This document shows positions 12,890-37,687 of a DNA stretch of 64,000 nt, one piece after another (the stretch's first letter is position 1; every line of letters starts with the position of its first letter). Origin of the DNA: Pseudomonas alcaliphila JAB1 (GTDB taxonomy: Bacteria > Pseudomonadota > Gammaproteobacteria > Pseudomonadales > Pseudomonadaceae); assembly GCF_001941865.1 (NCBI RefSeq), contig NZ_CP016162.1, forward strand, positions 3,657,501 to 3,721,500, given 5' to 3'. The translations under genes and the position numbers were made by a program. The notes below the pieces were generated by a model that ran no database searches, was not told the origin of the DNA, and saw only the letters and a list, made by a program, of their open reading frames with translations.

Positions 12890-13930
12890 ATGCCCGGTTA
12901 CTTCGCCAAGAACGAACAACATCGCCGCCTGGTCCTCAAAGCCTTGCTATGGATCACCTTGAGCGGCGGTTTGTTCTTCTCCGTGGTCAATCTGCTGCAC
13001 GACAACTGGTTGCTGGCCGGTCTGGAGATCGGCTACGCCGCTGTGTCGCTGTATCTGCTGACCATCGTCGACCGAACGCGCAACCTGCAGCTATTGACCG
13101 CGGTTTACCTGCTGCCGTTCTTCAGCATCATGATTGTGGCGCTGGCTCAGACCCACACCAGCTTCGCGGTGTTCGCCTGGATCCAGTCGATTCCGATCAT
13201 CTGCTACCTGCTGCTGGGGTTGCGTCTGGGTATGTACGGCTCGGTGCTGTTCGTCGGCATCGGCCTGTTCGTCTTCAGCCGGCGGTTTTCTTCCGATCAA
13301 TTGCTGCAAAACGTCGAGATCATCGCCAATCTAGGGCTGGCCAGTCTGGCGGTGATGATCTTTGCGCACATCTACGAACGCAGCCGCCTTCTCAACGAGC
13401 AGCGTCTGACCGACCAGGCAACCACCGATTCCCTGACCGGCTTGCCAAACCGGCTGAAGCTGGCCGAGGTATTCGAGCGCGAGCGTGCCCACGCGCAGCG
13501 CAATGGCACGCCGCTTTCGCTGGTATTCGTCGATATCGATCACTTCAAGCAGATCAACGACCGCTTCGGCCACGAGGTCGGCGACCGCGCCCTGGTTCAC
13601 TTCGCCACGGTGCTGGCGCAGCGTTTACGGGTCACTGATCTGTTCTGCCGCCTTGGCGGCGAGGAATTTGCCGTGCTGCTGCCAGGCAGCAAGGCGACGC
13701 AAGCGCGAGAAATCGCCGAGAGCCTGCGCGAACGCCTGGCCGCACAACCGCTGGCGGTGGATGAGACCACGCTACACATGACGCTGAGCGCCGGGGTGGC
13801 CTGCTTCGGGGTGGACGGGCAATCACTGGACGAGCTGATGCTGGCGGCGGACAGGCGCACCTACGCGGCCAAACGCGCCGGGCGTAACCGGGTGATTACC
13901 CGAGAGGACGTAGAGCCCGCTCTGGGCTGA
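12890..13930 (+). CDS. Membrane diguanylate cyclase (GGEEF)
   Basis: This 346-residue protein has five to six membrane helices in residues 15-160 with short loops, a 7TM-like sensor lacking a large periplasmic domain. The cyclase domain (175-345) has TDSLTGLPNR, DIDHFKQINDRFGH and GGEEF at 256-260. An intact inhibitory RVTD lies five residues before it. It should be an active, product-inhibited c-di-GMP synthase. It is transcribed away from the CAP gene. Confidence 0.88.
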   Translation: MPGYFAKNEQHRRLVLKALLWITLSGGLFFSVVNLLHDNWLLAGLEIGYAAVSLYLLTIVDRTRNLQLLTAVYLLPFFSIMIVALAQTHTSFAVFAWIQSIPIICYLLLGLRLGMYGSVLFVGIGLFVFSRRFSSDQLLQNVEIIANLGLASLAVMIFAHIYERSRLLNEQRLTDQATTDSLTGLPNRLKLAEVFERERAHAQRNGTPLSLVFVDIDHFKQINDRFGHEVGDRALVHFATVLAQRLRVTDLFCRLGGEEFAVLLPGSKATQAREIAESLRERLAAQPLAVDETTLHMTLSAGVACFGVDGQSLDELMLAADRRTYAAKRAGRNRVITREDVEPALG

Positions 13931-14868: not shown

Positions 14869-15035
14869 CTGCAAGCCTCCTCAGTGAAACCCGAGTTCAG
14901 GGCACATGCCCACTTACAGAAGATGGGACACGCCAAACGCCGAGGCGACTCCTGACGAATGGACGAACGGCCGACCGTTTGCTTGTCGAGGCGATTGCGC
15001 TAGGCTCTGCACCTTCATTGATAGGAGGTACTCCC

Positions 15036-15317
15036 ATGGCCCGCGCCACTGCCCGCCACATCCTGGTTGCCAGCGAAGACAAGTGCAACGAACTGAAAGC
15101 CGCCATCGAAGGTGGGGCCGACTTCGCCCAACTGGCCAAAGACAATTCCTCCTGCCCGTCCGGCCGCAGCGGCGGCGACCTGGGCTCGTTCGGCCCCGGT
15201 CAGATGGTCAAGGAATTCGACACCGTCGTTTTCAGCGCGCCGGTCGGCGTGGTGCAGGGCCCGGTGAAGACCCAGTTCGGTTATCACCTGCTGGAAGTCA
15301 CCAGTCGTCAGGACTGA
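15036..15317 (+). CDS. Parvulin-type peptidyl-prolyl isomerase (PpiC-like)
   Basis: This 93-residue protein is a bare parvulin domain: RATARHILVASEDKC, IEGGADFAQLAKDNSSCPSG, GGDLGSFGPGQMVKEFD and KTQFGYHLLEV. It lacks a signal peptide, so it is cytosolic like E. coli PpiC and should catalyse cis-trans isomerisation before proline. The start follows ATAGGAGGTACTCCC, a very strong ribosome site. A terminator immediately follows it. Confidence 0.92.
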   Translation: MARATARHILVASEDKCNELKAAIEGGADFAQLAKDNSSCPSGRSGGDLGSFGPGQMVKEFDTVVFSAPVGVVQGPVKTQFGYHLLEVTSRQD

Positions 15318-15329
15318 TCGTTCACTACA

Positions 15330-15359
15330 GAAGGGCCGCCAGTGCGGCCCTTCTGTTTT
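15330..15359 (+). terminator. Rho-independent terminator after the parvulin gene
   Basis: GAAGGGCCGC (15330-15339) pairs with GCGGCCCTTC (15344-15353) around a 4-nt loop, followed by TGTTTTC. Confidence 0.85.
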
Positions 15360-15403
15360 CCCAAGCCTTTTCAGCACCCTGTAGTAGGGCTCTGGGTTTC
15401 ACC

Positions 15404-16921
15404 ATGAAACGTGGTATTCGGCTCGCGTCCATTCTCCTGGTATTCATTTGCCTGTCGCTGGCGCTGCTGACCGCCTGGCAGGTCTGGTTCTCGCGTGAAC
15501 GCGCACTGCAAGAGCTGAACGTGGCCAACCTCAACCTGGCCCAGGCGCTGGACAACTACACGGAAGGGGTCATTCGCCAGTCGGAACTGGTGCTGATCGA
15601 CTTGGCCGAGCGCATGCAACACAACGGCCCGGCCGTGCACGAACAAGAACGCCTGCAGGCATTGCTACAGCAGCAGAGTGAAGTGCTTGGGTTGGCCAAT
15701 GCCATCGTCATCTACGACGAGCACGGCAACCGCCTGCTGGCACCGCCCCTGCCGCCAGGACACAATCTCAACGCCGCCGATCGCGCATTCTTCATCCATC
15801 ACCGCAATGATCCCTCCACCGGCACTTTCATCGGCCCCACCATCAAGAGCCGTATTACGGGTGACTGGGTCTTCACCGTCAGCCGTCGCCTGAACGATGG
15901 TGAAGGTCGTTTCGCTGGCGTGGTAGCCGTGACGCTGGGCGTCGAGCACTTTCTGAGCTTCTTCGGCAGTCTGGATCTAGGCAAACACGGCTCGATGAGC
16001 CTCTCCACGGGCGACGCCAAACTGCTGTTTCGCCAACCATTCCGTGAGCAGGATGTCGGCCTGGACTGGTCCGACTCACCCATCCTGCAACAGCTGCGCG
16101 AACAACGCGAAGGCACCACCGTACAGACCTCACGCATCGATGGTGTCGAGCGTGTCTATGCCTTCCGCCGCAACGATCGCCTGCCGCTGATCACCATCGT
16201 CGCACTCGGCCGCGACGACGCCTTGGCAGCCTGGCGCCGCAACGCCGAGCTGTTCACCGCGCTGATCATGCTGTTGCTGGCTGCCGTGAGCATCATTGGC
16301 CAATACCTGATCGTCGATATCCGCCGTCGCTCGCGCGCCGAGGCGCAACTGCTCAACGCCCGCGAGGAACTCCTTGATGCCAACGCCCGGCTGGAGGTCC
16401 TCGCCTCACAGGATGGCCTGACCGACCTGGCCAACCGCCGCAGCTTCGACCAGACCCTGGAGATGGAAATTCGCCGCGCGCAGCGTCGTGGCTCCTCCCT
16501 GTCACTGCTGCTGTTCGATATCGATATGTTCAAGCGTTACAACGACCACTACGGTCATGTAGCCGGTGATGACTGTCTACGTGCCGTGGCAGAGGTGCTC
16601 AAGCAGTGCGTACGCCGGCCCGGCGATCTGGCCGCCCGTTATGGCGGTGAGGAACTGGCAGTGATCCTGCCGAACACCACACTTGAAGGGGCTGAAGCCG
16701 TCGCCCAAAGCTTCATGCAGAGCCTGGAACAGCGCGACCTGGAGCACCAGGCAAGTCCCTTCGCGAGGGTCACGGTGAGTGCCGGCGTGGCCAACCTGAC
16801 GGCGGATCAGCGGGACAGCACGAGGCAGGCACTGGCGCTTATCGAGGCGGCCGATCAAGCGCTTTATCGAGCCAAGAACAATGGTCGAAATCGGCTGGAA
16901 AGTGCTGGAGTGCATGCTTAA
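15404..16921 (+). CDS. Transmembrane sensor diguanylate cyclase (GGEEL)
   Basis: This 505-residue protein has one helix at 7-27, a periplasmic region of about 250 residues resembling a double CACHE sensor (IVIYDEHGNRLL, DRAFFIHHRNDP, GDWVFTVSRRL), and a second helix at 282-302. A coiled linker and the cyclase domain (about 335-500) follow. The signature reads GGEEL at 414-418, with an inhibitory RPGD five residues earlier. GGEEL deviates from the consensus only at the last position, which is tolerated in several active cyclases, so activity is likely. The periplasmic ligand is unknown. Confidence 0.88.
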   Translation: MKRGIRLASILLVFICLSLALLTAWQVWFSRERALQELNVANLNLAQALDNYTEGVIRQSELVLIDLAERMQHNGPAVHEQERLQALLQQQSEVLGLANAIVIYDEHGNRLLAPPLPPGHNLNAADRAFFIHHRNDPSTGTFIGPTIKSRITGDWVFTVSRRLNDGEGRFAGVVAVTLGVEHFLSFFGSLDLGKHGSMSLSTGDAKLLFRQPFREQDVGLDWSDSPILQQLREQREGTTVQTSRIDGVERVYAFRRNDRLPLITIVALGRDDALAAWRRNAELFTALIMLLLAAVSIIGQYLIVDIRRRSRAEAQLLNAREELLDANARLEVLASQDGLTDLANRRSFDQTLEMEIRRAQRRGSSLSLLLFDIDMFKRYNDHYGHVAGDDCLRAVAEVLKQCVRRPGDLAARYGGEELAVILPNTTLEGAEAVAQSFMQSLEQRDLEHQASPFARVTVSAGVANLTADQRDSTRQALALIEAADQALYRAKNNGRNRLESAGVHA

Positions 16922-26341: not shown

Positions 26342-26449
26342 GCAGCCTGTCGGTCTGGGCGAAAATACTGGCACTTTGCTCAGGAATGCCCCTTGCCATT
26401 AGCGGTCAAAGCTCTGCATGCTTGCGTCATAACAACGAAAAGTAATGCC

Positions 26450-27496
26450 ATGCCGACCCAGACCGCTCGCCTGCTCAAGCGCCTGCGCAATGACTTCCAA
26501 CTGTCGATCATCACCCTGATGGGGCTGTTCGGGGTTATCGGCATCTCGCCTTATGCCGTCTACCGTCTGCAGGAAGGCAATTACCTGGTCGGTATCGCCG
26601 ACACCGTCATCGTCTTTTCCACCCTGTTCGCCGTGCTCTATGCCTGGGTCACCCGCGACACGGTCAAGCCCGGTATCTACCTGGCGGCCGTGTTCTCTGT
26701 CGGCGCCACGCTGATCGCCATCAACCTGGGGGTCAACGGCCTGTTCTGGATCTATCCGCTGATCCTCTTCAACTTCTTCATGGTCACCCCCGGCAAAGCC
26801 CTGCTGGCCACTGCACTGGTGCTGGTCAGCCTGGTCAGCCACGCCCTGCTGGTACCCGGCAGCGTGTTCGAAAGCCACTACCAGATGGTGTCGTTCCTGG
26901 TCACCTGCATGATGGCCAGCGTGCTCAGCTTCATCTTCGCCTTCCGCACCCGCAACCAGCGCGACCAGCTGCAATCGCTGGCCATTCATGATCCGCTGAC
27001 CGGCGCGCGCAACCGCCGGGCGATGAACGAAGAATTGAAGATTGCCATGGCCAGCCATCGCCGCCACAGCGACAGTTACGGCTTGCTGGTGATGGATCTG
27101 GATCACTTCAAGCAGATCAACGACCGCTTCGGTCATCACGTCGGCGACCAGGTGCTGGTGGCCTTCGTCGAACTGATCAAACGCTGCTCACGCAAGGAAG
27201 ATCGCTTGTTCCGCTTTGGCGGCGAGGAGTTTCTCCTGCTGCTGCCCAACACCGACCAGACGGGCCTGCAGGCCGCGGCGCAGAATCTGCTCAGTTGGGT
27301 GGCGCAGGAGCTTAAAAGCCCAGGCGGCGCGGTGACCGTCTCCATCGGCGGCGCCATTCTGCATAGTGGCGAGCACTGGGAGAGCTGGCTGCAGCGCGCC
27401 GATGAGTGCCTGTATCGCGCCAAGAGCGAGGGGCGCAATCGCGCGGTTATCGCCGACGCTCCAAACGATCAGAGCAAGACTGCCACCAGCCACTGA
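26450..27496 (+). CDS. Membrane diguanylate cyclase (GGEEF)
   Basis: This 348-residue protein has about six membrane helices (residues 17-165) without a large periplasmic domain, then a cyclase domain with HDPLTGARNRRAM, DLDHFKQINDRFGHHVGD and GGEEF at 257-261. The inhibitory site RKED sits five residues earlier. It should be an active and product-inhibited cyclase. The ATG at 26450 is taken; an upstream in-frame start is not supported by a ribosome site. Confidence 0.88.
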   Translation: MPTQTARLLKRLRNDFQLSIITLMGLFGVIGISPYAVYRLQEGNYLVGIADTVIVFSTLFAVLYAWVTRDTVKPGIYLAAVFSVGATLIAINLGVNGLFWIYPLILFNFFMVTPGKALLATALVLVSLVSHALLVPGSVFESHYQMVSFLVTCMMASVLSFIFAFRTRNQRDQLQSLAIHDPLTGARNRRAMNEELKIAMASHRRHSDSYGLLVMDLDHFKQINDRFGHHVGDQVLVAFVELIKRCSRKEDRLFRFGGEEFLLLLPNTDQTGLQAAAQNLLSWVAQELKSPGGAVTVSIGGAILHSGEHWESWLQRADECLYRAKSEGRNRAVIADAPNDQSKTATSH

Positions 27497-30642: not shown

Positions 30643-31368
30643 TCAGTCCGTCAGGTAGCGCTGCTCGATACGCTGGTAGTCGCCGCTCTCTCTGAGCATA
30701 CGAAGGCCCTCGTCGAAACGCCGACGCTGTTCGTCCCGGCGGAAGCCGACACGGTATGGCGTCTGCGGGAAAATATCGAACCAGGCCAGTGGCTGGGTCA
30801 CGTCGACCTGATCATCCACCTCGCGGTCCAGGTAGCGGATGATGCGCTTGTCGCCCACCACCACATCGGTGCGGCCGCTGTAGAGCAGGCGATTGCGATT
30901 GATCTGCAGCGCCTCCTCACGGTAACGCGGATTGTTCATGGCCATGCGCTCGAACTCCGGCCCCATCAGCAGTCGCGCACGCTGAAAGGCGCTGACCGCG
31001 TACTGGCCGAGGTCGGCGATCTGCTCGATCTGATAACCGCGCTTGGCCAGCGCCACCGCCACGTTCTGGTAATGGATGTAGACGTCCGAATAGAAGGCCT
31101 GCACGCCACTGCGCTCGTGAGTGGTGGTAATGGCGTCGATCTCGCCGCGGCGCAGCATCAGGTGCAAGCGCTCTATCGGCGCGTAATAGGCGGTCAATTC
31201 AAAACCGGCGTTGTGCGCAGCACGCTCCACCAATTCATATTCCAGGCCACGCGGCTCACCTTCGTAGACATAAGGCGGCTTGTGCGTGCCAAAGCCGACA
31301 TGCAGCAGCTCGGCCGCAACCGTCAGGCTCAGGCATGCCAGCATCACCCCCAGCCACCATCTGAGCAT
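30643..31368 (-). CDS. Periplasmic amino-acid-type substrate-binding protein
   Basis: This 241-residue protein has a short signal peptide (LGVMLACLSLTVA) and a type-3 extracellular solute-binding fold (FGTHKPPYVYEGEPRGLEYELVERAA; later RRGEIDAITTT). No permease or ATPase gene is adjacent, so it is an orphan binding protein, perhaps a sensor partner. The specific ligand is unknown. Confidence 0.7.
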   Translation of the reverse strand: MLRWWLGVMLACLSLTVAAELLHVGFGTHKPPYVYEGEPRGLEYELVERAAHNAGFELTAYYAPIERLHLMLRRGEIDAITTTHERSGVQAFYSDVYIHYQNVAVALAKRGYQIEQIADLGQYAVSAFQRARLLMGPEFERMAMNNPRYREEALQINRNRLLYSGRTDVVVGDKRIIRYLDREVDDQVDVTQPLAWFDIFPQTPYRVGFRRDEQRRRFDEGLRMLRESGDYQRIEQRYLTD

Positions 31369-31515
31369 CTTCTACCCCACTATCGGTCCCGCCAGAGCAT
31401 AAACGCCTGGCCGTCTTCATAACCAGAGTGGATGCCGGCCGATTCATTCCGCTTTGCCCTATCGCGGCTAGACTGGCTGCACGCATTTTGCGCCTGCCTT
31501 CAGGAGATCAAGACC

Positions 31516-32493
31516 ATGCTCAAAGCCGAATACCAACAACGCGGCCCGGTGCCGCAGGACGTGATCAGCGCGGTGCCACTGCAGCTGCCGGAACCCGCTG
31601 CCGGACAAGTGCGGGTCAAGGTACTGGCTGCACCGATCAACCCGTCCGACGTGCTGACCCTGACCGGCGCCTACGGCATGCTGCCGCCACTGCCGGCCGT
31701 GGGCGGCAACGAAGGCGTCGGCAAGGTCGAGGCGCTCGGTGAAGGCGTGAACAACTTCAAGGTCGGCCAGACCGTGCTGCTGCCGGTCGGCTGCGGTACC
31801 TGGGTCACGGCTCTGAATGCACCAGCGGAAAAACTCATCCCGCTGCCGGATGCCGACCCGCTGCAATTGGCCATGCTTACCGTCAACCCACCCACTGCCT
31901 CGCTGCTGCTCAGCGAATTCGTCGACCTCAAGCCGGGCGACTGGGTGATCCAGAACGCCGCCAACTCGGGCGTCGGCAGCTACCTGATTCAGTTGGCCAA
32001 GCTACGCGGTTTCAAGACCATCAACGTGGTACGCCGTGATTCGGCCATTGCCGGCGTCGAGGCCGAGGGCGGTGACCTGGTGCTGGTGGACGGCCCGGAT
32101 CTGGCCAAGCGTGTGCGCGCAGCGACTGGCGGCGCCGAAGTTCGCCTGGGTATCGATGCGGTCGGCGGCGTCAGCACCGACAACCTGGCCGCAGTGCTGG
32201 CCAACGGCGGCGTATTGGTGAACTACGGCATGATGAGCGGCCAGGCCTGCCAGGTCTCTCCCGCCTCCTTCGTGTTCCGTGACGTGACCCTGCGCGGTTT
32301 CTGGCTGGCCAAGTGGTTCCAGCAGGCCAGCCCGGCGCAGCAGATGAAGGTGTTCGGCGAACTGGTGCAACTGATCGCCAGCGGCAAGCTGAAGACCCGC
32401 GTCGCGGCGACCTATGACCTGGCACACATCAAGGACGCTGTCGCGGCGGCGGCCAGCGGCGAGCGCGACGGCAAGATTCTGCTGGTGCCCTGA
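31516..32493 (+). CDS. MDR-family NAD(P)H:quinone or 2-enoyl reductase
   Basis: This 325-residue medium-chain reductase lacks the catalytic zinc cysteines. It has APINPSDVLTLTG, GNEGVGKVEALGEGVNNFKVGQ, VNPPTASLLL and QNAANSGVGSYLIQLAK (the Rossmann site, about residues 150-170). Its closest pattern is the MECR/YhdH-like group, acting on quinones or 2-enoyl thioesters with NADPH. The start follows CAGGAGATCAAGACC. Confidence 0.78.
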   Translation: MLKAEYQQRGPVPQDVISAVPLQLPEPAAGQVRVKVLAAPINPSDVLTLTGAYGMLPPLPAVGGNEGVGKVEALGEGVNNFKVGQTVLLPVGCGTWVTALNAPAEKLIPLPDADPLQLAMLTVNPPTASLLLSEFVDLKPGDWVIQNAANSGVGSYLIQLAKLRGFKTINVVRRDSAIAGVEAEGGDLVLVDGPDLAKRVRAATGGAEVRLGIDAVGGVSTDNLAAVLANGGVLVNYGMMSGQACQVSPASFVFRDVTLRGFWLAKWFQQASPAQQMKVFGELVQLIASGKLKTRVAATYDLAHIKDAVAAAASGERDGKILLVP

Positions 32494-32777
32494 GACTGAC
32501 AGCGCACCCTGCCTCCAAAGTGCACCCGGCGCCCCCGTTCCCATGGGGCGCCCTCTCTCCTACCGCCCCCAGCAGCGCACTGCCTGCGGCGAGTACGCCC
32601 TGTGCAGGGCAGGCCACTGCCATTCGCCTGCTTTATCCGCAGCGTGAAACTGCTCAGCCAAAGCAGCTCATATCTGTAGGGAATAAGGCAAAGTACTTTT
32701 TCCCGCGCTAGAATCTATGGGCTTGGTCATTTTATGGCCAATGGCCAATACCCCACTGACTCGCCGGACTGTCACTG

Positions 32778-34949
32778 ATGAAAACTAAAAAAGACGCCGT
32801 AGCCCCCGCAAAGGAAGCCACCCTGGCCGATATCGCCGACAACCTGCTGGCGCCGCCCGCGCTGCCGGGGCACAGCGTTAGCGGCGAGCAGTATCTGTAT
32901 TTCACCGAACGCGATATCGAGCGCATCCTCGATAACCTCGATGGCCTGCGCAACATGGTGTTCCCGCTGGGCGAGCCGCTGGACGAAGGCGAGTCGAGCC
33001 GCATTCAGCAGTTTCCCTCTGTGTGCCTGATCGGCCTCGGCCGCTGCGGCTCGAACATCGCACTGGACGTCGCCTCCCTGGTCTACAACGCGCGCCAGTT
33101 CTATCTGGAAGAGTTTCACAGCGAAGCCACTGCCACCATCGAGCAGGCCTCACGCCCCAGTCGCTGGATTCGCAGCAATCTGTTGCGCGCGCCGCGCAAG
33201 AGCAGCAAGCCGGTATTCCTGATCGAGCCGCTGGTGATGCTCGGCGACCTGGACAAGGACATCGCCGGGCGCATCCGCTTCTCGCGCAAAGGCGAGATGA
33301 GCGGTTTTCTCGACGATTACAGCAAGATGAAGATCATGGACCTGTCCGAGGTGCATGCCGGCGGTGCCGGCAACGCGCCGATCCTCGGTCAGTACCTGGC
33401 CAAGATCATCCTCAACAAGGACACCCAGCGCTTCTCCAACGAAGACTGGAAGTTCATCCACAGCTACCTGATCGACTCCTGCGGGATCAAGGCCAACCAG
33501 TCGCGCCTGTACTTCTATATCTTCAGCGCCGGCGGCGGCACCGGCTCGGGCATGGCCTCGGAGTTCGGCCTGGCGCAGCAGTTCGCCTACATGAGCAAGA
33601 CCTTCGACAGCAAGACGCCGGACGATGGCGAGGCCGAACGCGAACGTGGTTTCGTCTTCGAACCGATCTTCACCAGCGGCATCTGCATCCTGCCGAACAT
33701 TTCCGACCAGCGCAGCGAGATGTCCGAAGCCCTGCACATCAACGCCGGCCGCCTGCTGTGCAAGTACCTGGCCGAGGAATGGGACTTCTCCTACAACTTC
33801 GACAACGAGCAGAACAGCGCCGAAAGCGTGATGCGCCGCATCCGCCCGTGGAACGCGATGATGCTGATCTCCAACGACATCATGCGTTACGCCGAGGAAA
33901 GCGGTGACGGCAGCATCCACAACATCGACGTGACCGCCATGGAGCGCCACGCCAACCAGTACATCTCGCAGCAGATCTTCAACATCCTCACCGCCCAGGC
34001 GGTGACCAGCGACTACGACCAGAACTACTTCCGCCGCGCCGGCATCGACATCGGCGAAACCATCCGCCTCGACGCCAACGACCTGTTCATGAGCCTGGCC
34101 GGCCCGGTGGCCGTGGCTTACGCCGAATCCGTGGTGCCCGAACAGCACACACAACTATCGGAAAAATTCCGTGTACTGGACAAGGAACAAAGCCCGCCAC
34201 GGCTGAACATCGACGACCTGTTCTTCCGCTCCATCGACCTGCCGCACTTCAACAAGGTCACCCAGGCCATCGAAGGCATCAGCCTGCTGCCGATCGAGTC
34301 CAAGCGCTATCGCCAGGCGCTGGAGCAGTACAAGTCCAGTGGCTACGACGCCACGGAGCTGAGCGACCTGCACTTCTTCAAGAACTGCTCCTCGGTGGTG
34401 TCCATCGTCTCGCTGCCCAAGGACTACAAGCTGTCCTACATGGACCTGAACCGGCTCAAGACCCACCTCAACAACCTCTTCCCCAACACCACGCTCAAGC
34501 GCTACGCACTGGTGATCGGTGCCTCGGCGAACCTCTCGCTGACCACCCTGATCGTCAAGAGCCCGTGCCTGTCGGACGACTTCCTGACCCTGATCGTCGC
34601 CTACATCAAGCGCTGCTTCGCCCGCGACCAGTACCGCTTCGACGACAGCCTGGACGACGCCATACTCGACTTCATCGTCGCCGAGCGCTTCGACGAGGCC
34701 AGGCTCGACGCCATGCTCAACGAGCACGAAGACCCGGCGAAGATCCTCGACACCAACTGGTATGCGATCAAACCGATGTACGAGAAGAAGTACCGCGAGC
34801 TGATCCACGACACGGAGAAATTCGTTTCGATCAATGACATCCGACTGACACGCGAAAGCGTCAAACAGGCGATCAAGTACCTGCGCGAAATCTATCGCCA
34901 CCGCATCGGCAAGACCCGGGTGATCTCGCTCAACGATTACGGCAAGTAG
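32778..34949 (+). CDS. FtsZ/tubulin-like GTPase, 723 residues
   Basis: This large soluble protein carries tubulin/FtsZ GTP-binding motifs: VCLIGLGRCGSN (about 82-93, the N-terminal glycine loop), HAGGAGNAP (about 193-201, T3-like), AGGGTGSGMASEFG (251-264, the GGGTGxG T4 signature), MMLISNDIM (T6-like, about 361-369) and LDANDLFMSLAGP (about 431-443, T7-like with two Asp). It is twice FtsZ's length and no cell-division gene is near. It fits the FtsZ-like families described outside FtsZ (Tubulin_2/FtsZl type), thought to act in membrane remodelling. The function here is unknown. Upstream a TAGAAT at 32709-32714 may be a -10 box. Confidence 0.8.
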   Translation: MKTKKDAVAPAKEATLADIADNLLAPPALPGHSVSGEQYLYFTERDIERILDNLDGLRNMVFPLGEPLDEGESSRIQQFPSVCLIGLGRCGSNIALDVASLVYNARQFYLEEFHSEATATIEQASRPSRWIRSNLLRAPRKSSKPVFLIEPLVMLGDLDKDIAGRIRFSRKGEMSGFLDDYSKMKIMDLSEVHAGGAGNAPILGQYLAKIILNKDTQRFSNEDWKFIHSYLIDSCGIKANQSRLYFYIFSAGGGTGSGMASEFGLAQQFAYMSKTFDSKTPDDGEAERERGFVFEPIFTSGICILPNISDQRSEMSEALHINAGRLLCKYLAEEWDFSYNFDNEQNSAESVMRRIRPWNAMMLISNDIMRYAEESGDGSIHNIDVTAMERHANQYISQQIFNILTAQAVTSDYDQNYFRRAGIDIGETIRLDANDLFMSLAGPVAVAYAESVVPEQHTQLSEKFRVLDKEQSPPRLNIDDLFFRSIDLPHFNKVTQAIEGISLLPIESKRYRQALEQYKSSGYDATELSDLHFFKNCSSVVSIVSLPKDYKLSYMDLNRLKTHLNNLFPNTTLKRYALVIGASANLSLTTLIVKSPCLSDDFLTLIVAYIKRCFARDQYRFDDSLDDAILDFIVAERFDEARLDAMLNEHEDPAKILDTNWYAIKPMYEKKYRELIHDTEKFVSINDIRLTRESVKQAIKYLREIYRHRIGKTRVISLNDYGK

Positions 34950-34990
34950 CCGCCCGCGTGGACGAGAACCCGGCGCAACGCCGGCAGGCA

Positions 34991-35014
34991 GGGCGGGCAT
35001 AAGCATGCCCGCCC
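34991..35014. terminator. Possible bidirectional hairpin between convergent genes
   Basis: GGGCGGGCAT (34991-35000) pairs with ATGCCCGCCC (35005-35014) around AAGC, between the convergent GTPase and isomerase genes. There is no T tract. Confidence 0.4.
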
Positions 35015-35027
35015 CTGCACGAATGCA

Positions 35028-35813
35028 TCAGGTGCACTGCTGCCACTGCGCCAACCAGCCCAGGCTGGCCTGCGTGCCCTCCTCGCCCGGCTTGTATTCG
35101 GCGCCCAGCCAGCCGCTGTAACCGCTGCCACGTAAAGCACCGAGCAGCGCGGGGAACGCCAGCTCGCCGGTACCTGGCGCGCCGCGCCCCGGCACGTCGG
35201 CGAACTGCACATGACCGATGCGCCCGGCCAGCAAGCGCATTCCTGCGGCCACGTCCAGCTCCTGACGCGCCATATGGTAGAGGTCGTACTGTGCGGCCAG
35301 ATTCGGGTGATCCACTGCGCGCAGCAGCGCATCGAGATGCTCCGGCGTATTGATCAGGAAACCCGGCATATCGATCGGGTTGATCGCCTCCACCAACACG
35401 CGGATGCCCAACGTCGCGAAGGTCTCGGCGCTCTTGCGCAGGTTGGCGGCCAGGCAATCCAGCGCCTGCTCGCGGCTCACGCCTTCGGCCAGGCGGCCGG
35501 GCAGCACATTGATGCAGGCCGGGCGCGCCATGGCGGCGTAGGTCAGCGCCTCCTGCAGGGCGGCGTCGAACTCGGCCTGACGCGCCGGCACGCTGGCCAG
35601 GCCGGGGCCGCCGGTCATCAGATCGCCTGCCGGCACGTTGATCAACACCAACGGCAGCGCGGTCAACTCCAGCACTTCTTTCAGGGCTACCGCTGGCAAC
35701 TCATAGGGGAACTGAATTTCCACGCCATCGAAACCCGCCGTCATCGCCGCCAGCACGCGCTCGCGCAGCGGCAACTCGGTGAACAGCATGGACAGGTTGG
35801 CCGCGATCTTCAT
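35028..35813 (-). CDS. hyi: Hydroxypyruvate isomerase family protein
   Basis: This 261-residue TIM-barrel enzyme belongs to the AP-endonuclease-2/xylose-isomerase-like superfamily: IQFPYELP, VLVEAINPIDMPGFLINTP, AAQYDLYHMARQELD and GAEYKPGE. It should interconvert hydroxypyruvate and tartronate semialdehyde, or a tetronate. Its ATG overlaps the upstream gene's stop (ATGA), and a GGGAG sits 8 nt before that ATG, so the start at 35813 is preferred over 35819. It is the partner of the following reductase. Confidence 0.82.
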   Translation of the reverse strand: MKIAANLSMLFTELPLRERVLAAMTAGFDGVEIQFPYELPAVALKEVLELTALPLVLINVPAGDLMTGGPGLASVPARQAEFDAALQEALTYAAMARPACINVLPGRLAEGVSREQALDCLAANLRKSAETFATLGIRVLVEAINPIDMPGFLINTPEHLDALLRAVDHPNLAAQYDLYHMARQELDVAAGMRLLAGRIGHVQFADVPGRGAPGTGELAFPALLGALRGSGYSGWLGAEYKPGEEGTQASLGWLAQWQQCT

Positions 35814-36700
35814 GGGCATTGCTCCCGCAGCATTTCCACCAGGGTGGCAGGGTCGCGCTCAAGAAAGCCCTGACTGCCGTGCAGACGCATCAGTTGCGCG
35901 GCCAGGCCGCTCATGGGCGTGGCGCTGCCCTGCTCACGGGATAGTTTGACCGCCGTATCGAGGTCCTTGAGCAGCGTGCGTACGTGCCACTTGATCGGCT
36001 CGAACTGGCTGGCGGCCATCTGCGGCGCGAGAATCTGCAGCGGCTTGGAGTCGGCGAAACCGCCGGCCAGCGCCGGGGCGATCAGGCTGGCGTCGACGCC
36101 GGAGCGCTCGGCCAGCGCCACCACTTCGGCGATCACCAGCGCGTTGCAGGCCACGATCATCTGGTTGCACACCTTGGTCACCTGCCCGGCGCCCACCTCG
36201 CCCATGCGCGTCAGGCGCTGGCCCAGATGCGCCAGCACCGGGCGTACGCGCTCCACGTCCTCTACCCGGCCGCCAGCCATGATCGCCAGCGTGCCGGCCT
36301 CGGCACCCGGCGTGCCGCCGGACACCGGCGCATCCACCCAGCGCATGCCAGTACGTGCCTCCAGCTCGGCGGCCATCTCACGAGTGGCCGCCGGCTCGAG
36401 GCTGGAAAAGTCCACCAGCAACTGCCCCGGCCGCGCGCCTTCGACGATCCCGCCCGGGCCGAACACCACCTCACGCACCACCTCGGTATTGGCCAGGCAG
36501 AGCATCACCACATTGGCATCGCGACACAGCTCGGCAGGGTTCTCCACGCGGTGTGCACCCTGCTCCAGCAGCGACGCGCATTTGTCCGGCGTGCGGTTCC
36601 ACAGGGTCAGCGGGTAGCCTGCGGCGAGCAGGCGGCGGGTCATCGGCAGGCCCATCAGACCAATCCCGGCGAAGGCCAGGGCGGGAAGCGTTGCGGTCAT
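35810..36700 (-). CDS. NAD-binding 3-hydroxyacid dehydrogenase (GarR/LtnD-like)
   Basis: This 296-residue beta-hydroxyacid dehydrogenase has FAGIGLMGLPMTRRLLAAGY at the NAD(P) site, DAPVSGGTPGAEAGTLAIMAGG as the substrate loop, GAGQVTKVCNQM with the catalytic Lys, and KDLDTAVKLSREQG. The family reduces tartronate semialdehyde or oxidises related C3/C4 hydroxyacids. It is the upstream gene of a two-gene operon with the isomerase, a pairing seen in glyoxylate and C4-sugar-acid pathways. Confidence 0.85.
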   Translation of the reverse strand: MTATLPALAFAGIGLMGLPMTRRLLAAGYPLTLWNRTPDKCASLLEQGAHRVENPAELCRDANVVMLCLANTEVVREVVFGPGGIVEGARPGQLLVDFSSLEPAATREMAAELEARTGMRWVDAPVSGGTPGAEAGTLAIMAGGRVEDVERVRPVLAHLGQRLTRMGEVGAGQVTKVCNQMIVACNALVIAEVVALAERSGVDASLIAPALAGGFADSKPLQILAPQMAASQFEPIKWHVRTLLKDLDTAVKLSREQGSATPMSGLAAQLMRLHGSQGFLERDPATLVEMLREQCP

Positions 36701-36835
36701 CGATCAACTCCAGGCAGTTCGTATCCAGCGCGCATCTTAACCCCGGAGTCAGTTGTGTGCTGCCGGGGCTGCATCGGCAGCGTCGGGCCACTATACTCCG
36801 CGCGCCTTCCCCGCTATTGAACCGGAGAATCCGAC

Positions 36836-37687
36836 ATGTTCAAGAACACCCTGGCGCTCGCCGCCGGCATCGCTCTGTCCGTATCCGCTGTATTCGCGCA
36901 AGCCGCCGACGTCCTCAAGGTCTCGGCCATCCCTGACGAAGCCCCCACCGAACTGCTGCGCAAGTTCAAGCCGCTGGGCGCCTACCTGGAGCAGGAACTG
37001 GGTATGAAGGTGGAGTTCGTGCCGGTGGCCGACTACGCCGCGGTGGTCGAGGCGCTGGCCGCCGACCGTATCGACATGGCCTGGCTCGGCGGTTTCACCT
37101 TCGTCCAGGCACGCCTGAAAACCGGCAACGCCGTGCCGCTGGTGCAGCGCGAGCAGGACGCCGAGTTCACCAGCAAATTCATCACCTCCGACCCGGCGGT
37201 GAAGTCCCTGCAGGATCTGAAAGGCAAGACCTTCGCCTTCGGCTCGGTGTCCTCCACCTCCGGCAGCCTGATGCCGCGCTACTTCATGCTGCAGGACGGC
37301 ATCAAGCCGGAAGACTTCTTCAGCCGCGTGGCCTATTCCGGCGCCCACGACGCCACCGCCGCCTGGGTGCAGGCCGGCAAGGCCGACGCCGGCGTGCTCA
37401 ACGCCTCGGTGTGGCAGAAGCTGGTGGACGCCGGCAAGGTCGACACCGACAAGGTCAAGGTCTTCGCCACCACCCCGACCTACTACGACTACAACTGGAC
37501 CGTGCGCGGCAACCTCGACGCCGACCTGCAGGCGAAGATCAAGGCCGCCTTCCTCGCCCTCGACCCGGCCAAGCCCGAGCAAAAGGCGATTCTCGATCTG
37601 CAGGCCGCCAGCCGCTTCATCGAAACCAAGCCCGAGAACTACGAAGGCATCGAAGAAGCCGCTCGCGCTGCCGGCCTGTTGAAGTGA
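36836..37687 (+). CDS. PhnD-family ABC substrate-binding protein
   Basis: This 283-residue periplasmic protein has a signal peptide ([18 protein letters not shown]) and a PhnD-type fold: [66 protein letters not shown] and [10 protein letters not shown]. Members bind phosphonate, phosphite or a similar oxyanion. I recall a related set labelled putative selenate transporters, which I cannot verify here. The ATG start is standard; the stop overlaps the ATPase start by 4 bases (GTGA). Confidence 0.82.

Follow-up and report, generated by a model that had tools for sequence, protein, structure and literature searches.

What does the gene in the middle of this locus encode, and is its product new? 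The window, a 64,000-nucleotide stretch of the Pseudomonas alcaliphila JAB1 genome, holds a gene which a sequence-only reading had taken for a monocistronic FtsZ/tubulin-like GTPase with no cytoskeletal partner, and for the best candidate there for an undescribed system. That reading is right about the sequence and too strong in its claim of novelty. The product is a real, conserved, and uncharacterised protein that very probably belongs to the tubulin superfamily, and its family has already been named FtsZl2. What is new may be a partial genomic clue to function, namely linkage to genes for GGDEF proteins of cyclic di-GMP (c-di-GMP) metabolism. A cell-skeleton protein that is this common (found as a single copy in roughly two thirds, 98 of 149, of the genomes sampled from the window's genus) and that has no known role represents a real gap, and the linkage opens the way to a specific and cheap test of its role in pseudomonads. 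The features of the locus are collected in Table 1.

Table 1. Features of the FtsZl2-type gene, its product, and the adjoining genes (positions in the window).
Feature	Residues	Position	Strand	Basis
FtsZl2-type tubulin-like protein gene		32778..34949, stop included	+	ATG start, 723 aa
T1-like glycine loop GLGRCGSN	86-93	33033..33056	+	motif match, alignment
T3-like loop GGAGNAPILG	195-204	33360..33389	+	pattern in 124/139 family members
T4 signature GGGTGSG	252-258	33531..33551	+	138/139 family members
T6-like ISND	364-367	33867..33878	+	138/139 family members
T7-like IRLDANDL	429-436	34062..34085	+	139/139 family members
C-terminal part	478-723	34209..34946	+	low-confidence model, by-eye comparison
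Zinc-type alcohol/quinone oxidoreductase gene, upstream, co-directional		31432..32493, start uncertain	+	PF08240, PF00107
Hydroxypyruvate-isomerase-like TIM barrel gene, convergent (name is our reading)		35028..35819	-	PF01261
2-hydroxy-3-oxopropionate-reductase-like gene (GlxR type, name is our reading), convergent		35810..36700	-	PF03446, PF14833

The loops T1, T3, T4, T6, and T7 carry the standard names of the tubulin superfamily. As the sequence-only reading had stated, GLGRCGSN, GGGTGSG, SND, and LDANDL are present in FtsZ order; the T3-like loop is an addition, and nine of its ten positions are invariant in a 139-sequence family alignment. In T1, G86 and G88-N93 are invariant in this alignment and position 87 is nearly so. 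D432 and D435 of T7 are invariant as well; this loop was matched by eye with the FtsZ loop INVDFADV. The equivalents of the five loops in the FtsZ of the same genome are GVGGGGGN, GAGANPEVG, GGGTGTG, IPNE, and INVDFADV. A joint ordered loop pattern, which we wrote to suit both FtsZ and the family, hits 122 of the 139 sequences of the family and, among FtsZ proteins, 17 of 23. It is absent from 27,800 shuffled sequences and from 5,087 further ORFs of the retrieved loci, a set cleared beforehand of 81 ORFs bearing GGGTGSG, so that T4 is no free test there.

The protein shares with FtsZ (PF00091 with FtsZ_C) its loop order and, probably, its GTPase logic. In contrast, the starts of T1 and T4 lie 166 residues apart here and 88 in FtsZ, the protein is about 1.8 times longer than the FtsZ of the same genome (723 versus 397 residues), and the FtsZ profile does not recognise it. 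It is not the division FtsZ, because the genome encodes a separate FtsZ of its own. All ten carriers checked for an FtsZ have one.

Judged by its sequence, the protein fits FtsZl2, a known family described in 2010 by Makarova and Koonin with PFL_1302 of P. fluorescens Pf-5 as its type (PMC2875224). That paper assigns to FtsZl2 the loops T1, T4, T6, and T7 together with H7, a distribution in Proteobacteria only, and a mixed alpha/beta C-terminal part of about 300 residues, without recognised relatives and with no coiled-coil domain. According to the same authors, PFL_1302 matches PF00091 in HHpred with an E-value of 0.0033, and FtsZl1 and FtsZl2 are both candidates for cytoskeletal functions (PMC2875224). 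The species in its Figure 1 include Pseudomonas, Marinomonas, and Chromobacterium, whose assignment to FtsZl2 is our reading. The protein described here agrees in having T1, T4, T6, and T7, a long C-terminal part without recognised relatives, and occurrence in Proteobacteria, with members in Pseudomonas and Marinomonas beside a canonical FtsZ in the same genome. A P. protegens FD6 protein (L077) is 79% identical to that of the window, and Pf-5 is now classed as P. protegens. Our analysis adds the T3 loop and a sampled distribution (98/149 genomes of the genus). It also differs in showing a recurrent GGDEF neighbour in two lineages, whereas the 2010 authors found no gene association, and hence no genomic clue for FtsZl2 (PMC2875224). 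As the family was published in that year, the system is not an undescribed one.

By the Tubulin_2/FtsZl type, which the sequence-only reading names, we understand FtsZl1, a family other than FtsZl2. Against PF13809 (Tubulin_2) the protein scores 15 bits, below the curated cut-off of 27, in a match over T3-T4 (residues 196-265). PF13809 is uncalled in genome G000, and no operon of the FtsZl1 type was noticed. The C-terminal part of FtsZl1 also differs from that of FtsZl2, according to the 2010 paper (PMC2875224). A later study of the superfamily left out Tubulin_2-type sequences (PMC9871819). Open-access term searches, with PFL_1302 as the sole locus tag, retrieved no experimental work on FtsZl2, and PFL_1302 is named in a single paper within this literature. 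Two further hits were set aside: “FtsZl2” in PMC7327170 is part of the mutant name FtsZL272E, and the tubulin genes in PMC7159879 belong to other conflict systems.

The dN/dS ratios of the gene against three relatives are about 0.08, 0.20, and 0.15, hence selection maintains the protein. In the window, the gene can indeed be called monocistronic, with a gap of 284 bp to the oxidoreductase gene upstream and convergent genes downstream. The term does not extend to close relatives, in which a c-di-GMP gene follows about 60 bp downstream. An Rfam search of positions 31000-37000 returned zero matches up to an E-value of 0.1, and hence no c-di-GMP riboswitch in this interval. Scans of the locus for promoters and terminators gave none better than chance. 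The convergent genes are separated by a perfect inverted repeat (34991-35014; arms of 10 bp, loop of 4 bases, no T run), a possible two-way terminator.

The clue to function comes from the comparison of 110 genome loci, 99 from the window's genus (window included) and 11 others. A GGDEF gene lies within 1.6 kb of the tubulin-like gene in 83 of them, on the same strand in 83 of 83; six loci with less than 1.6 kb of flank on one side, three with and three without a GGDEF gene on the visible side, are all counted. There are three partner types, each seen on both sides of the tubulin-like gene across different genomes, and their domains were confirmed with Pfam in five representatives. MHYT-GGDEF-EAL is encoded upstream in 75 loci (24 without an intervening GlxR-type gene and 51 with one on the opposite strand) and downstream in one. 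AmtB-PAS-GGDEF-EAL is found downstream in four loci and upstream in one, these being five of the seven carriers of genus g249. NMT1-GGDEF occurs once on each side. The remaining 27 loci, the window among them, have no GGDEF neighbour. Named loci repeat the Pseudomonas arrangements, with MHYT-GGDEF-EAL downstream in 12 of 80; in a partly different set of loci, 11 of 12 such neighbours follow after gaps of 58-71 bp. The picture for strand is the same in a broader collection of 189 loci with some redundancy: immediate GGDEF neighbours are co-directional in 59 of 59 cases, versus 26 of 116 for other immediate neighbours of at least 200 residues.

An NbdA-like MHYT protein (E-value under 1e-60) is present in 80 of the 98 carriers of the genus sample and in 29 of the 51 non-carriers (Fisher p 0.0018, uncorrected for kinship), and the two genes lie within 1.6 kb of each other in 76 of the 80 genomes that have both. 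On a tree of 157 carriers, from which exact repeats and loci with less than 1.7 kb of flank had been removed, the neighbour label changes at least 18 times (FastTree, a single method). RapA, an MFS transporter, GlxR, and DUF2288 (our names) also recur in the neighbourhood and were rejected as partners on account of varying strand or distance.

Other observations speak against a general linkage. Of the genus sample, 18 of 98 carriers are without the NbdA-like gene, and 29 of 51 non-carriers possess it. In an out-of-sample family, none of eight further carriers (one with 0.2 kb of upstream flank) has a GGDEF gene within 1.6 kb. This brings the overall count to 83 of 118 genome-examined loci, all 83 in Pseudomonas and a Marinomonas-like genus. 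No such neighbour was found in the two carriers of genus g237 (one flank short) or the single one in G564, and in G036, where the flank is short, a single GGDEF gene lies 3.7 kb away. In the window no GGDEF gene adjoins the tubulin-like gene, and the JAB1 genome is without an NbdA-like MHYT protein (best match E 2e-32). In three loci of close relatives (L001, L003, and L004), whose flanking DNA is 93-97% identical, 2.3 kb with an MHYT-GGDEF-EAL gene separate the stop of the tubulin-like gene from the next gene; the window junction (34949-35028) is without these 2.3 kb. The statement that the gene has no partner is thus accurate for the window and not for the many relatives with an adjacent GGDEF gene. 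Likewise, the comparison across Pseudomonas that had been proposed as a check reveals a GGDEF neighbourhood in many loci, the window being without it. Farther off, three same-strand GGDEF genes occur within 20 kb upstream in the window, at 12890-13930, 14906-16921 (true start later), and 26393-27496 (+), the last being the one to which Pfam was applied; the genome has 55 GGDEF matches in 5.34 Mb, from which about 0.2 would be expected per 20 kb.

The main rival to a c-di-GMP scaffold is inherited synteny in GGDEF-rich genomes. On this account, FtsZl2 is a filament GTPase whose role is unrelated to c-di-GMP, and its GGDEF neighbours reflect common descent and chance; we put this at somewhat less than even odds. 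Genomes in our background set of 20 carry 36-62 GGDEF matches each, the out-of-sample family gives 0/8, and many of the 83 GGDEF loci are syntenic copies, not independent events. With three partner types only, the linkage would arise by chance with a probability of about 0.004-0.016 at an assumed gene density and before strand is counted. Harder to reconcile with an unrelated role are the recurrence of the same partner type on either side of the gene, the existence of three such types, and the uniform strand (83/83). When both orders of each type are counted, the chance falls to 1.6e-5. Both estimates are rough, as they assume one gene per 1.05 kb and treat neighbour families as independent draws, some of which are spurious ORFs, with the MHYT- and AmtB-type GGDEF-EAL proteins merged.

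Our best overall explanation, to which we assign a probability of roughly 0.35, is that FtsZl2 is a GTP-dependent filament protein that possibly serves as a scaffold for membrane c-di-GMP sensors. From what is known of the superfamily, T1, T3, T4, and T6 would form the GTP pocket, and D432 and D435 in T7 of the next subunit would complete GTP hydrolysis, yielding a dynamic head-to-tail filament that depends on GTP. Formation of a polymer is probable. For Pseudomonas and the Marinomonas-like genus we suggest a filament that positions or clusters membrane-bound sensor enzymes of c-di-GMP turnover; candidate clients are MHYT-GGDEF-EAL, proteins joining an NMT1-type domain to GGDEF, and AmtB-PAS-GGDEF-EAL. 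This coupling is a lead and not a result, and physical or functional contact between the proteins is a tentative proposal on the less likely side. Two points favour the scaffold, the GGDEF linkage and the precedent of a diguanylate cyclase held by an FtsZ structure: in E. coli, YfiN (DgcN) is kept at the midcell Z ring through FtsZ and ZipA (PMC4992967). The analogy, which is our own, lies in the docking of a membrane enzyme of this kind on such a structure, and the difference is that the partner there is the division FtsZ. A bolder version, in which FtsZl2 would be a second, signalling-dedicated bacterial tubulin whose GTP-driven filament would dock the c-di-GMP sensor enzymes of the membrane and gate them, strikes us as unlikely. 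If true, GTP would link the cytoskeleton to the turnover of the second messenger.

Membership of the protein among the GTPases of the tubulin/FtsZ superfamily is highly likely, because its loop order matches that of FtsZ and Pfam gives weak matches. At an E-value limit of 10, PF00091 (Tubulin) and PF13809 are listed in 20 of 20 members tested, with best E-values among the 20 of 3.1e-5 and 0.0012, respectively. Every score inspected (eight proteins; the other members are represented by best E-values only) lies under its curated cut-off. For PF00091, the window protein reaches 13.9 bits and the best member 24.8, with a cut-off of 33. An HMM built from 23 FtsZ proteins scored at best 0.1 bits against the family and 4.0 bits against shuffled sequences, the reverse comparison of the family profile with FtsZ gave nothing above controls, and hhalign at several settings found no signal over shuffled or reversed controls. 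PADLOC, NCBIfam, and PDB sequence searches returned nothing of note. Structure prediction, which had been proposed as a check, produced two AlphaFold2 models, both of low confidence (mean pLDDT 33 and 51), and fold searches gave nothing firmer. The second appears to place strands and helices in tubulin-like order by our reading, and a low-confidence model predicts a helix at 385-410, a candidate for core helix H7. The original description as an FtsZ/tubulin-like GTPase retains its motif order and gains weak Pfam matches, while the sub-cut-off scores and the low-confidence models temper it. An FtsZ profile at shuffle level and models of low confidence leave some room for a nucleotide binder that has tubulin-like loops but forms no polymer, or even lacks the tubulin fold altogether. 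We regard this as improbable in view of the five ordered loops, the invariant acidic pair of T7, and the E-value of 3.1e-5 that one member attains with Pfam Tubulin.

The C-terminal alpha/beta part spans about residues 453-723 and is alpha/beta in the better portion of a low-confidence model. In such an AlphaFold2 model, a strand-helix-strand-strand unit at 539-593 precedes about 125 mostly helical residues, and by eye this unit seems to resemble the order of the FtsZ C-terminal domain. Pfam and PDB sequence searches gave no match of note in the C-terminal part. Residues 688-707 (34839-34898) are strongly amphipathic and basic, with a moment of 0.73 at 688-705; a helix here is a possible site of contact with a membrane or a partner. 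Such a helix could touch the membrane if the protein were a membrane-remodelling GTPase, as the 2010 authors proposed for the sister family FtsZl1 (PMC2875224). The neighbours, mostly read by eye, include no VWA, kinase, OmpA, or small-GTPase partners that we noticed, and we consider membrane remodelling quite improbable.

Three overlapping searches, each scoring some 8,000 candidates only, returned 639, 647, and 644 homologous protein clusters (the first at E<=1e-3). The named relatives, among the best 80-120 of longer lists, are gammaproteobacterial by name; Pseudomonas chengduensis and P. toyotomiensis, among the nearest, have proteins that are 99% identical. Carriers in wider samples number 13 of 244 for the order, 9 of 151 for one of its families, 1 of 3 for the order to which G036 belongs, 3 of 274 (one a false match) and 2 of 369 for two class samples, and 5 of 299 for the phylum; these samples partly overlap and were all drawn inside the phylum. 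Rheinheimera, Cellvibrio, Alishewanella, and Corallincola are also among the carriers. A weak match at class level (L083, E 9e-4) reads by its sequence as a ThiF/E1-like Rossmann protein. A TubZ/PhuZ-like protein for positioning DNA or phage, captured by the chromosome, is very improbable, as its superfamily resemblance is set against a single-copy, slowly evolving gene, searches of 72,556 plasmid and 50,697 phage records that came back empty, and a pattern-based IMG/VR scan of viral contigs that gave no confirmed match.

Towards five genomes outside the genus (loci L140-L142, L144, and L147), conservation of the tubulin-like protein exceeds that of FtsZ: 76 versus 68% for G036, 75 versus 71% for G564, and 70-71 versus 62-63% for three Marinomonas-like genomes. 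Compared within the genus or with G435, FtsZ is the better conserved of the two. The higher conservation towards those five genomes and the patchy distribution of the family suggest transfer of the gene between lineages or unusually slow change. Two copies, L247 (G349) and L248 (G341), are apparently damaged, one being split in two frames and one retaining the C-terminal half only, and both still adjoin an MHYT-GGDEF-EAL gene.
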